DNA from: a virus | IMG/VR virus record: IMGVR_UViG_3300030117_003756 | Span: 17,129-49,614 of that record | Length of the DNA stretch: 32,486 nucleotides | Reading direction: 5' to 3' (one strand) | Shown: piece by piece, positions 6,149-23,835 of the stretch | Numbering within the stretch: the stretch's first letter is position 1 | Layout: every line of letters starts with the position of its first letter | The notes under the pieces: model-generated | The model's input: only the letters and a program-made list of their open reading frames with translations | Told to the model about the DNA's origin: nothing | Database searches by the model: none | Made by a program: the position numbers and the translations under genes

Positions 6149-6406
6149 CTAATCGAAATCTTTTTCCTTCATCAACAATATTTTTTCTCGATGAAACCCA
6201 GGTCTACTCTGCGAATGAGTAAACGAACCAAAATGTTTTGACTTACCTGAGTGTTCAAGCTTACCTGATTTCACAACCAGCCCATGAAACTTAACCTGAT
6301 GAGCCCCAACTCCAATCGGTACTTGTACAATCTCACCACCACCTTCAACAAACTTATCCACCATCTCGCTCAACTTCTGACTCAACTCTGCTTTTGTTTT
6401 ACTCAT
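6149..6406 (-). CDS. small hypothetical protein upstream of the terminase gene (85 aa)
   Basis: ATG 6406 follows AAAAGGAGAATCAT, a good ribosome binding site. The protein has an N-terminal helix (KTKAELSQKLSEMVDKFVEG), a Gly/Val strand-rich centre and a His/Ser/Lys-rich C-terminus (SGKSKHFGSFTHSQSRPGF). No family was recognised. It is nine bases from the small terminase gene and is probably co-transcribed with it from the region 6407-6751. Confidence 0.7.
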   Translation of the reverse strand: MSKTKAELSQKLSEMVDKFVEGGGEIVQVPIGVGAHQVKFHGLVVKSGKLEHSGKSKHFGSFTHSQSRPGFHREKILLMKEKDFD

Positions 6407-10539: not shown

Positions 10540-10827
10540 CTATCCCCTAACTGGCACACCTTTTCTTTTTTCTAGCGGCCTACTTTTTGTTTTTGATCGA
10601 TCCTCTGGTATCGCAATGGTGCTATGGATCTCACTGGCTGGCCCATAAATAGACTCCCAGTCCAGCTGTCCATCAGACATATGCATGAAAAGCTTCGCTA
10701 ACTTTACAGACGGAGATCGATTGAGTAAACGATACTGACTGATAGATCCTTTAGGTTTGCCAGTTCTCCTGGCTACCTCCTCATCGCCTAGTTCCCATAT
10801 CCAATCTGCTAATGTAACTTTATTCAT
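10540..10827 (-). CDS. Cro/CI-like helix-turn-helix regulator (95 aa)
   Basis: Residues 5-60 read as a compact helical DNA-binding domain: TLADWIWELGDEEVARRTGK followed by PKGSISQYRLLNRSPSVKLA has the spacing of a Cro-like helix-turn-helix, with an invariant-looking alternate Gly and Ser/Gln recognition helix. The C-terminal 30 residues are basic (RSKTKSRPLEKRKG). The protein probably represses phage promoters or acts at an origin. Its ribosome binding site, AGGTGAGG, is the last unit of the five-base repeat array that fills the space upstream. It is followed after two bases by the PrimPol-helicase gene. Confidence 0.75.
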   Translation of the reverse strand: MNKVTLADWIWELGDEEVARRTGKPKGSISQYRLLNRSPSVKLAKLFMHMSDGQLDWESIYGPASEIHSTIAIPEDRSKTKSRPLEKRKGVPVRG

Positions 10828-11491
10828 AAAACCTCACCTGCCAAAACACACCGCACCCTAACTCAACCCAAGTCAACTCAACGTAACTAGACAAACCCAT
10901 ACATACCTGCCAAACCACACCGGAACCTAACGGACCCGAACTCAACACAACGTGCCTAGACTAACCAAAACATACCTGCCGAACCGTAATCTAATCGACC
11001 TCACCGTAACGTACCAGAACCCGACTCGCCTAACCTGCCAAACCGTACAAGAACGAACCGCAACCTAACCCAACGTACCCCGACAAATCTGCCGTACCTT
11101 ATCGAACCGCACCGAAGCCAAAATCAACCCACCCCACCTTACCTGCCGAACCATAACGCACCCAATCACACCGTACCAATCTGAAACGCACCCGACCCTA
11201 CCTGCCACACCGAAACGGAACTAGCCGTAACACAACACGCCTAACACCAACGCACCTTACCTGCCAAACCAGAACAAAACGTACCGTACCGCAACCTAAC
11301 TTATCCCGCCGAAAACCAACCCACCTTACCTGACCTGCCAAACCTAAACTCGCCGCACCCAAACGAATCTGACCATGTCATAACTCGCCTTACCTGCCAT
11401 ACCTAGTCCTAAGCTACCGTTGCCTGCCGAACCGAGTTTTACCCAAACCAGCCTTACCTGCCAGACCAAACCGCATCCAGACCAAAGCAAT
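10828..11491 (-). repeat. five-base periodic repeat array in ten units, (AGGT)(NNGKY)n
   Basis: Read on the minus strand, this whole intergenic space is a run of pentamers with G at position 3, G/T at 4 and T/C at 5. GGCAGGT boxes interrupt the phase by one tetramer, AGGT. On the plus strand the boxes (CCTGCC, once TCTGCC) begin at 10837, 10906, 10975, 11034, 11088, 11142, 11201, 11260, 11334, 11393 and 11457. The ten intervals are 69, 69, 59, 54, 54, 59, 59, 74, 59 and 64, all equal to 5n+4 with n from 10 to 14 (116 pentamers). The minus strand is strongly GT-rich. The array starts a few bases after the stop at 11492 and ends in the ribosome binding site of the gene at 10827. The period excludes a coding role. 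Confidence 0.9.
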
Positions 11492-11992
11492 TTATTTTTT
11501 AAGAAACAAATTGATTGGTTCCAAGACATCAGAAAGCTCAGTCAATGCTTTGTACTTGTTGTGAAATGCATTAAGTTCTTTTCGAGCAGTTTCAATAATT
11601 ATCTCTCTGCCTTCAGGATCTTTAAGCATGTCAAAAGTATTGAGCCAAAACCGTTTTGATTTATCATTACATTCCACGTTAACCCGCTGGAATAAACGAA
11701 TCTCTGTAGGTTCTGTTTGATCATTGTTTAACTTCTCAGTAACCACCACCAAAGATCGCTTGATCTTCTTCTCTGTATTCAATCGATACTTGTCACCAGC
11801 TACTGCGTCATCCCATTCAAAGTCATTGTGTAAAACAGACTCAGGATTTCTAGCATGCTCTACTAAAGAGCCATCGGGGGCGTAACCCCCGTGGCGCTTG
11901 TTGAGAGCTTCTATTTCTTTAAGAGCAGCCTTTGCGTCTGCTTTAAAGACAGATCCTTTTCTCCACTTTACTTCAGTGTAAACAGGATTCAT
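11492..11992 (-). CDS. conserved phage protein of unknown function (166 aa)
   Basis: A soluble protein with an N-terminal helix (KADAKAALKEIEALNKRHGG), a segment LVEHARNPESVLHNDFEWDD (residues about 43-62) and a strand-rich half containing KIKRSLVVVTEKLN. The ARxPxSxLHxxFEWDD pattern recalls a phage family that I have seen beside genes like the one upstream; its role is not known to me. The gene overlaps the upstream gene by four bases (ATGA) and is followed directly by the five-base repeat array. Confidence 0.8.
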   Translation of the reverse strand: MNPVYTEVKWRKGSVFKADAKAALKEIEALNKRHGGYAPDGSLVEHARNPESVLHNDFEWDDAVAGDKYRLNTEKKIKRSLVVVTEKLNNDQTEPTEIRLFQRVNVECNDKSKRFWLNTFDMLKDPEGREIIIETARKELNAFHNKYKALTELSDVLEPINLFLKK

Positions 11993-12633
11993 GCTGCTTC
12001 CGATTCAAAGTCTATGAAAGATTCCTTCAGTTGAATCTCATGCTTGAACTCTCTGTCAACCTCGAATCGACCGTACTCTCCACCTTTTTCTGGACGCATC
12101 TCACCCAGCCCAACACCAAAACCAGCCCTTTGGATTAGATTTAATATGGTGTTTTTAGTAAGAGATTGAGAATCAAACTCCAACCGAACAATCATGGACC
12201 AGTTACGAAACTCAGGACGATAACGGAGATCAGTAGAGCCCATACCGACTTTGACTATATCTTCTCTCATGATCGGATCATCTGATTCAAAGGCGCACAG
12301 ATTGTTAACTGCATCATCAGGTATGATGAACAAAGACTTTCTAAGCAAAGTTTTTTCAAGCCCTATGTCTTTGTGTGCAGAATTAATCAAACACCTTTTA
12401 AGTCCACCCGCTGGGAAACCAAAGCGTCCATCCTCACAAACGTAAGCAGCATCCTTGAACTCTTGTTCAGGATCTCTAACGTCACGGTTTTTAACCTTCA
12501 CCCCCTGGTGCTTGTCCCGCATCATCTGCTTTGCTTTCTCGCTCCACTTATGTTCAATCAAAGCAGAGATACTCTTTATGCGCGTAGTCAGGATTGACTG
12601 TTGCATTGTTTCCAACGTAATTACATTACTCAT
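11989..12633 (-). CDS. phage protein with a Cas7/RAMP-like C-terminal signature (214 aa)
   Basis: The order of segments is FGFPAGGLKRCLINSAH (residues about 71-87), a variable middle ending DLRYRPEFRNWSMIVRLEFD, and a C-terminal GFGVGLGEMRPEKGGEYGRF glycine-rich loop. This combination is typical of a phage protein family that resembles Cas7-like RAMP proteins, which have an RRM fold and bind RNA in helical arrays. The resemblance is from motif memory and needs structure prediction. The gene is first in the minus-strand transcript driven from 12707-12736 and is followed by a partner gene and the repeat array. No CRISPR array or other cas genes are present. Confidence 0.75.
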   Translation of the reverse strand: MSNVITLETMQQSILTTRIKSISALIEHKWSEKAKQMMRDKHQGVKVKNRDVRDPEQEFKDAAYVCEDGRFGFPAGGLKRCLINSAHKDIGLEKTLLRKSLFIIPDDAVNNLCAFESDDPIMREDIVKVGMGSTDLRYRPEFRNWSMIVRLEFDSQSLTKNTILNLIQRAGFGVGLGEMRPEKGGEYGRFEVDREFKHEIQLKESFIDFESEAA

Positions 12634-22176: not shown

Positions 22177-23835
22177 TTATCTAGGGGCAAGAAGAGTAGA
22201 TATGTCAACTCCTCCCAGAGCTTCCCTATATTTCCTTAAATCATCAATATTAATATTAGCATTAGGAAATGTTGCATTTAATTTTATTAATGTCTCTATA
22301 TCTTGAGCATCTTTTATTCTAGTAAATAAGCTTTGAAGAACCATTCTGTCTACATCTTCTTCGCTTTGTCCTTCGTATGGTTGGACTAATGGTCTAATTA
22401 ACTCAAACTGTTGTTGTAAATCTGATTTAGCATCTTCAGAAAGTTTAGTTAACTGAGCCTGCTCTAAGTCGTACTGCCTTGCACCTTCTGAAGCAGCGAC
22501 AAGCGCATTGACTGGAGTGTATCCTTCAACAGGTTTTGCAGCAGCCATTAGGCCAGCCCTCACTCTAGGATCATCAAGCTTATCGAATGCAGTTCCTGCG
22601 ACTCCTCTTAATCGAGAAAATGTTTTATCAAGCCAGCTCGTATTATCAGATTTAACTTCATCATCTTCTTCTTCTTTATCTGGTTTAGGTGGTATACTTC
22701 CTTGAGGAAGTGTTGTTGGATCAACTTCTTCGTTTGTTTCTGGATCAATTAATTTATTACCAAGCCAATATAACCCAGCACCCCCAAGACCATATTTAAC
22801 GGTTTTTCCAAGCAAGCCTGGCTGTTTTTTCATACCTTCATCAATAACTTCGTCAGCTACATTTTTTACGGGCTTTTGTTGTTGTGCGTCTGTCTTAGTT
22901 TCAGTTTCATCTGTCTTAGTTTTAGACCCATCTGTTTTAGTTTTAGTCTCATTTTTTTTTGACGTTATAACTTTTGGAGGTTCGGCTTCAAACTCATCTA
23001 ACTTTCCTTTATCTCCCTTTAATAGTCTTCCAAGTTTGTTACCAATAAATTTACCAAAATCTACAAAAATTCCATCTCTCGCTTTTAATGTAGCAACTCC
23101 ACCGTTAGCGTAATTATTCATTTCGTCTGGTTCAGCCATGCCTTCAGCTATACCTTCTCCCACCGCAAATGGGAGTGATCCGATTCCTCTAGCAGCTTGC
23201 ATTCTTCCAAGTCTTTCTAATGTTCCTTGAGGAATTGCTTTACGACTATACGCTCCAGAACCAGACAACAATCTATTTAATAATTTTGTTCCTTTGATTC
23301 CAGACTTACCAATCCTTCCTGCTAAGGCTGCTGGCGCACCTACTCCTGTCGCCGCAATCCCTAGTAAAGTGTTATCAACGACACTGGTTGGATCATAAAT
23401 AAGATCAGTTATATCCCTTAAATTCATTCTTTCTTCGCCAGTGCCTAATTTGTATTCAGAAGGAGAAAAGTCAATAAAGTCTTCTTCAAAATAATCATCA
23501 GCATCAGGAAGATATTCTCCTATTATATCTGTAACTGCTTGCAATTCTTCAGGAGAATATTCTTCATAAGCATCTCCAAGCAATGAAGCAATGCCAGTGA
23601 ATGGACTAGCGGCAAATTCCGTTATCTTTTCTAATCCTTCTCCAAAGTCTTCGCTTTTATCTGAAACATAAGAACCTAAATCGCTCAAAGCAGCCATTAA
23701 TCTTTCAGATCGGTCGTCATCACTGACTTCATCGCCATCAGCGTACCCTCTTATAGGAGCTACTCCAGCCATAATTCCAGCGCCTTGCCTCATTTGAGGA
23801 GTTTGAAACATGGGTCTATTCATATATTGATTCAT
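22177..23835 (-). CDS. virion-associated protein with TKTD repeats (552 aa)
   Basis: The N-terminus is Met/Gln-rich and contains PIRGYADGDEVSDDD, similar to start segments of marine phage virion proteins. The middle has Gly/Ala-rich hydrophobic stretches, including one near residues 165-185 (GIAATGVGAPAALAGRIG) and a second (YGLGGAGLYWLGNKL). Residues about 290-320 repeat TKTD three times within a Lys/Thr/Asp linker, followed by an acidic EEEDDEVK patch. The C-terminal half is helical. Located between two other large virion genes, it is probably an internal or ejection protein; no enzyme motif was seen. Confidence 0.7.
   Translation of the reverse strand: MNQYMNRPMFQTPQMRQGAGIMAGVAPIRGYADGDEVSDDDRSERLMAALSDLGSYVSDKSEDFGEGLEKITEFAASPFTGIASLLGDAYEEYSPEELQAVTDIIGEYLPDADDYFEEDFIDFSPSEYKLGTGEERMNLRDITDLIYDPTSVVDNTLLGIAATGVGAPAALAGRIGKSGIKGTKLLNRLLSGSGAYSRKAIPQGTLERLGRMQAARGIGSLPFAVGEGIAEGMAEPDEMNNYANGGVATLKARDGIFVDFGKFIGNKLGRLLKGDKGKLDEFEAEPPKVITSKKNETKTKTDGSKTKTDETETKTDAQQQKPVKNVADEVIDEGMKKQPGLLGKTVKYGLGGAGLYWLGNKLIDPETNEEVDPTTLPQGSIPPKPDKEEEDDEVKSDNTSWLDKTFSRLRGVAGTAFDKLDDPRVRAGLMAAAKPVEGYTPVNALVAASEGARQYDLEQAQLTKLSEDAKSDLQQQFELIRPLVQPYEGQSEEDVDRMVLQSLFTRIKDAQDIETLIKLNATFPNANINIDDLRKYREALGGVDISTLLAPR

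Follow-up and report, generated by a model that had tools for sequence, protein, structure and literature searches.

Layout of the locus

The window analysed here (32,486 nucleotides, corresponding to 17129-49614 of the 49.6 kb virus record IMGVR_UViG_3300030117_003756) contains a 664-nucleotide gap that is filled, on the minus strand, with five-base repeats and is preceded on that strand by two intact open reading frames, one of which codes for a Cas7-like protein of the RAMP family (Table 1). The locus is almost certainly a VIPR system, composed of a guide-RNA array and the genes vipr and vap, in which ten guide RNAs would repress the coding sequence of rival elements. This reading is based on the array itself, the homology and fold of Vipr, the linkage of the module, and in-frame matches in which single nucleotides are skipped. 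VIPR, described in April 2026, combines the RAMP protein Vipr with an accessory gene, vap, and with vrRNAs that each contain 9-16 YNNGG repeats (PMC13142463; bioRxiv 2026.04.26.720920). Double-stranded DNA is recognised by pairing with the NN dinucleotides, between which one base, usually the codon wobble, is skipped, and rival phages and mobile elements are repressed by the complex. Seven types differ in their array architecture (PMC13142463). That report, the only VIPR paper found in a literature search, supersedes the statement in the original prediction that no described element follows such a rule.

Table 1. Position of the array, its guides and the adjoining genes in the window.
Feature	Position	Strand	Details
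Cro-like helix-turn-helix (HTH) gene	10540..10827	-	downstream of array; last box (GGCAGGTGAGG) overlaps likely ribosome-binding site
vrRNA (VIPR guide RNA) array	10828..11491	-	leader, ten guide tracts (10-14 NNGKY pentamers) and eleven GGCAGGT/GGCAGAT boxes
Guide 10	10840..10904	-	13 repeats; reverse reading [KN]TALSPSSVY[KN][HQ][IM]
Guide 9	10909..10973	-	13 repeats; reverse reading [KN]TGLGRSTVYY[KN][IM]
Guide 8	10978..11032	-	11 repeats; NN same in L003
Guide 7	11037..11086	-	10 repeats; preceded by the sole GGCAGAT box
Guide 6	11091..11140	-	10 repeats; NN same in L086 despite one scaffold base change
Guide 5	11145..11199	-	11 repeats
Guide 4	11204..11258	-	11 repeats; reverse reading T[DE]GYVTTYPA[FL]
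Guide 3	11263..11332	-	14 repeats; forward reading [QH][KN]GGSG[KN][SR]ATT[FL]L[FL]
Guide 2	11337..11391	-	11 repeats; NN = AA GA AT AT CA TC TG GC GA TA TT = KEMMQSWADYL; degenerate reading [KN][DE][IM][IM][QH]S[CW]A[DE]YL
Guide 1	11396..11455	-	12 repeats; NN = AA TG TG AA TC TC AG AC AG AG TA AT; reverse reading [IM]YLLVL[DE][DE][FL][HQ][HQ][FL]
Candidate vap (accessory)	11492..11992	-	166 aa (p166), phrog_15946, FEWDD family
vipr	11989..12633	-	214 aa, phrog_4652; RAMP (Cas7-like) protein with G-rich loop (GFGVGLGEMRPEKGGEYGRF)

The minus strand of the array consists of 40% G, 34% T, 14% A and 12% C, and its identity at a lag of five bases is 0.486 compared with 0.309±0.017 in shuffles, an excess that supports the period originally predicted; further autocorrelation peaks lie at lags of 10, 15, 20, 25, and 30. 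A recount on the same strand agreed with the prediction in finding eleven boxes (ten GGCAGGT and one GGCAGAT), box-to-box intervals of 64, 59, 74, 59, 59, 54, 54, 59, 69, and 69 that all leave a remainder of 4 on division by 5, and 116 pentamers in phase (12+11+14+11+11+10+10+11+13+13 per unit). A twelfth near-box, GGCAGGC, lies in phase within unit 1 and is not a boundary. That the whole gap obeys NNGKY turned out to be a strong but imperfect rule: G occupies position 3 in ~90% of pentamers (104/116), G or T position 4 in 93%, and a pyrimidine position 5 in 95%. Taken over all units, the two NN positions come close to the highest possible entropy (1.93 and 2.00 bits, compared with 0.42 for position 3), and the information content of these freely varying dinucleotides had been missed in the prediction.

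The spacing recurs in relatives: in ten of their arrays, 49 of 55 box intervals equal 4 mod 5, and two more (3 mod 5) represent two units with a lost box. This upholds the view of a noncoding, conserved spacing rule as opposed to a recent tandem copy. In the box, GGC-A-GGT, the triplets are separated by a single base and not by two, which breaks the five-base phase. The 5n+4 spacing is best read as the punctuation of the array, with GGC-A-GGT shortening one repeat and delimiting the guides, and the box may also serve as an RNA processing point. An invariant long repeat was not found in the array, and Rfam gave zero matches in the window or relatives, so that an annotated ribozyme between units is absent there.

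The alignment of the 214-aa protein contains a conserved G-rich loop, which is typical of RAMP proteins. A profile of nine Vipr homologs matched exactly one PDB sequence, the Vipr of SUSP1 (36pp; E 4e-13), and a single-sequence search gave 8.8e-8 against the same entry. Its AlphaFold model (pLDDT 79) matched Csm3 and type VII Cas7 in Foldseek (E 7.6e-5, prob 1.00), and VIA-align placed it in the Cas7/Csm3 fold with a Z of 11.8 over 144 residues (root-mean-square deviation 3.8). Pfam, NCBIfam, and PADLOC did not recognise Vipr, and neither Vipr nor the 166-aa protein was assigned to a Cas family by PADLOC or NCBIfam.

The 166-aa gene lies between the array and vipr, overlapping the latter by four bases. 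Its protein is modelled, with weak matches, as a winged-helix-like N-terminal part and a 40-residue C-terminal helix: comparison of the model with the PDB returned nothing significant (Foldseek best E 0.28; VIA best Z 5.8), and VIA rows at Z 4-5.6 include several winged-helix DNA-binding proteins. PADLOC matched the protein weakly (E 0.0013), and a Pfam match to DUF3081 fell below the threshold. The locus has the minimal parts of VIPR, namely vipr, one small accessory gene and a long intergenic stretch. No adaptation genes were seen around it.

Decoded guides and candidate targets

Each unit was decoded as NNx, i.e. the variable NN followed by one skipped base. The peptide decoded from guide 2 is the C-terminal motif of phage tyrosine integrases, and searching viral contigs with the corresponding pattern (GAxATxATxCAxxxxTGxGCxGAxTA) returned at least 120 stretches in 92 contexts. 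About 103 of the 120 listed stretches are tyrosine integrase C-termini (R-x-EMMQxWADYLD), matched in frame and with all skipped bases at wobble positions, while the same letters with a two-nucleotide skip gave 23 matches, approximately the chance level. The best full-length match was 21/22. Guide 2 decodes over its full length of 11 dinucleotides, beginning with the pentamer directly behind one box and ending with the pentamer directly ahead of the following box, and hence a guide spans exactly box to box. Among the orthologs of guide 2 from other phages, NN vary at one place only, dinucleotide 6 (TC, GC or CG), and this corresponds to the codon that varies in the integrase motif. A guide from the relative L084 matches a second integrase site, VKDPNGRAYNR (19/22).

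Guide 4 spells a motif, [DE]G[YF]VTTYQA, that is conserved in a phage DEAD/DEAH-box helicase. With a pattern loosened to admit the L086 ortholog, all seven matching stretches encoded this motif, and the open reading frames inspected belonged to one DEAD/DEAH helicase family; one of them lies in a phage (L107) with terminase and portal genes, judged by eye. This helicase gene (L107:1586-3340) is matched by guides of at least two arrays, as a guide of L018 matches it elsewhere (MTGTLERGDGKPI, 22/26), and such matches from different arrays suggest a common rival gene.

Judged by these sequence matches, integrase and phage helicase are well-supported targets, and guides 2 and 4 match in the pattern described for VIPR pairing, with NN separated by one skipped base at the codon wobble; both targets would also fit the rival phages and mobile elements on which VIPR acts. 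An AlpA-type regulator and a ParA-type ATPase are suggested as additional targets. Here, guide 9 resembles an AlpA-type regulator/excisionase motif (22/26 match in L234) and guide 10 appears AlpA-like; a Walker A motif of the ParA type is suggested by guide 3, and the DEAH-box stretch YALILDEFHHV of the guide-4 helicase by guide 1. Overall, the guides and Vipr probably act together to silence genes of competing phages and mobile elements.

Several observations weigh against this interpretation. The decoded readings of guides 5-8 gave no target, and guides 1, 3, 9, and 10 show motif resemblance only; for guide 9, an exact 20-base search returned no matches and one of five 16-base matches was AlpA. 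The number of guide-4 matches is near chance expectation, and its weight therefore rests on the same in-frame motif being present in all seven. A blind scan with all guides over 4.4 Mb of fetched loci (both strands counted) gave 0.774 for the one-nucleotide skip and 0.759-0.770 for other skips, an absence of an average difference that is attributed to the sample being small and mostly without targets. A search over 0.86 Mb of fetched relatives (both strands) yielded no clear target, either in this phage or among those relatives, and the targets that were found belong to diverse viruses and do not point to one particular rival. Furthermore, the GKY scaffold is looser than GGY, the folding of the array does not exceed that of shuffles (z 0.87), and a structured 3' tail of the kind seen in type II is absent.

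Conservation of the guides provided a separate measure. In 15 orthologous unit pairs, which are not independent, substitutions scaled to the variation between unrelated units gave ratios of 0.15 and 0.07 for NN and 0.37, 0.31, and 0.22 for GKY. NN are thus better conserved than the scaffold, which argues that they carry information while the scaffold drifts within its class. The array could alternatively be a VIPR derivative that has decayed, or that is only self-regulatory, in this phage: unit 1 is irregular (containing AAAAC, AGGCA, and AGCTT) and one box reads GGCAGAT. Nevertheless, the other nine units are clean, NN are conserved among orthologs, both vipr and vap are intact, and no own-genome match of the window guides ranked among the best, making decay or mere self-regulation very unlikely.

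In the VIPR reading, the array would be transcribed from the minus strand together with the vipr-vap operon and yield ten VIPR guide RNAs. Approximately one Vipr subunit would bind per pentamer, gripping the constant GKY triplet and leaving NN exposed. The exposed dinucleotides would pair with double-stranded DNA, and one target base would be passed over from each dinucleotide to the next. The one-base drop in the box would break the phase, and may thereby mark the end of one guide and the start of the next. The resulting ribonucleoprotein would settle on genes of rival phages and integrative elements, within the coding sequence and in such a register that the skipped base is the codon wobble, and repress them. 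Ribonucleoprotein formation, the skip rule and repression are taken from the VIPR paper, and I infer transcription, processing at the box, subunit number and biological effect for this phage.

The cassette in relatives and known systems

All loci found with the 166-aa protein (L083-L093) have a period-5 array beside its gene, so the rule is kept next to the same kind of gene, as originally predicted. Homologs of p166 with 33-34% identity also have arrays; the box is GGCAG in L093, and the fixed triplet differs in L092 (ACANN, or TGT on the other strand). Array, Vipr, and accessory gene travel together in marine, Gordonia, Mycobacterium, cyanophage, and gut relatives. In contrast, close relatives that keep both flanks at 84-86% DNA identity (L005/L096; IMGVR_UViG_3300029319_000291) are missing vipr, vap, and the array, and this joint absence indicates that the three form one cassette. 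Individual guide units are common to different phages with differing order in the array, and this sharing and reshuffling makes the lineage suited to studying how VIPR guides are gained.

This distribution bears on two readings in which no guides are involved. First, the array could act as DNA, providing iterons or a loading site for the phage primase-helicase, the Sak4 recombinase or SSB at five bases per subunit; a PrimPol-helicase gene is near, replication and recombination genes populate the region, and the array is strongly strand-biased in composition. Yet the close relatives retain the same primase and HTH gene without an array, Gordonia and Mycobacterium phages carry the array in other gene contexts, and a loading site would not be predicted to have NN that spell targets elsewhere, which leaves such a role extremely unlikely. 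From the mechanisms listed in the original prediction, RNA and five bases per protein subunit hold up, but loading site and replication origin are rejected, since it is vipr and vap, not replication genes, that accompany the array.

Second, the triplets could form a TRAP-type RNA regulator: repeated every five nucleotides in the leader of the Cro-like gene, they would control translation by binding an oligomeric protein, with NN as mere spacer. TRAP sites have the same spacing as the window array, and the likely ribosome-binding site of the Cro-like gene is overlapped by the last box. However, the gene downstream of the array varies between relatives, the Gordonia and Mycobacterium arrays lie upstream of, or between, other genes, and free drift of NN is predicted although NN are the better conserved part of orthologous units. 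Together with the decoded targets, which also speak against it, this renders a TRAP-type leader so improbable as to be practically negligible.

Like the described VIPR systems, the window locus has a RAMP protein homologous to SUSP1 Vipr (36pp), an adjacent small accessory gene and long intergenic five-nucleotide repeats with variable NN; it is also phage-encoded, has 10-14 repeats per guide compared with 9-16 in the paper, and appears to direct one-nucleotide-skip, wobble-sparing guides at rival mobile elements. It deviates from them in a GKY scaffold that is not strictly GGY, and in guides arranged head to tail and separated only by the seven-nucleotide box with its one-base phase shift. Its accessory protein belongs to the FEWDD family, unlike the gene following vipr in LESphi2. 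In type II (the SUSP1 / P. fulva clade), an invariant structured 3' tail follows each tract, whereas in the window only the box is invariant, and the array is accordingly not filed as type II. Tentatively, and with somewhat less than even confidence, I propose a compact, tail-less form of VIPR: the phase break would set the ends of the Vipr filament or a processing point, the FEWDD accessory would be distinct, and guides would be aimed at the most conserved motifs of rival integrases and helicases, allowing a single guide to cover an entire gene family.

The RAMP fold and G-loop are shared with class 1 CRISPR-Cas backbones (Cas7/Csm3), as is the principle of a protein filament along a guide RNA in which bases stay unpaired at regular intervals. 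Here, two of five bases would pair compared with five of six in CRISPR, and palindromic repeats and spacers, a contiguous guide and a cas gene set were all absent. TIGR-Tas is similarly described as pairing an associated protein with short tandem guide RNAs from a phage-encoded array (PMC12045711), whereas the window protein is a RAMP.

Starting from raw sequence, and in a phage lineage for which metagenomes are the sole source, the findings independently support a non-contiguous guide code whose first report dates from 2026. The guides seem to target codon motifs that are conserved in integrases and in a phage helicase, skipping the wobble base, and 5n+4 finds an explanation as punctuation.

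Neighbouring genes and further occurrences

The Cro-like HTH gene is kept without the array in L005/L096, and is probably a neighbour outside the system. In these two relatives, other sequence upstream of the HTH gene replaces the cassette, including an open reading frame that resembles a GIY-YIG nuclease by eye. An 85-aa gene of the window (6149-6406, minus strand) is similar to the gene directly after the array in L084/L088; as it sits 4.4 kb off in the window, the downstream neighbour of the array has been exchanged. Genes near the array also encode an SSB-like protein, a DEAD helicase and a Cas4-like exonuclease, besides the PrimPol-helicase and Sak4.

The same unannotated module is present in GenBank phages amenable to laboratory tests, namely Gordonia phages UmaThurman, Pipp, ODay, and Ecliptus, Mycobacterium phage Saal and cyanophage Cy-LDV1. 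A scan of genome contigs with the accessory alignment added one prophage-like locus (L102, Sciscionella), which likewise has the array, a yield that is due to the single strict peptide pattern used. Vipr homologs are annotated as 'hypothetical protein' in Saal (gp51-52, and ~26 related records), UmaThurman (gp39/41), Cy-LDV1 (g33-34), and Pseudomonas LESphi2 (P21_9), and period-5 arrays lie beside them at the loci read (Saal, Gordonia, Cy-LDV1, and LESphi2). Using the LESphi2 homolog as a query returned 134 phage records, mostly from Escherichia and Salmonella phages.

In L092 (4420-4920), the ACANN pentamers (TGT/NN on the other strand) are located in the loops of long hairpins, while the window array is open instead. 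Beside this real array, coding repeats of the type NTGN/NTGD with a 15-base period (L092:3400-3640) mimic the lag-5 signal, and scans at lag 5 consequently need a check for coding repeats. Elsewhere in the window, a 21-base repeat occurs three times (22889-22952) within a 552-aa open reading frame, where it encodes a KTKTDE-type linker.
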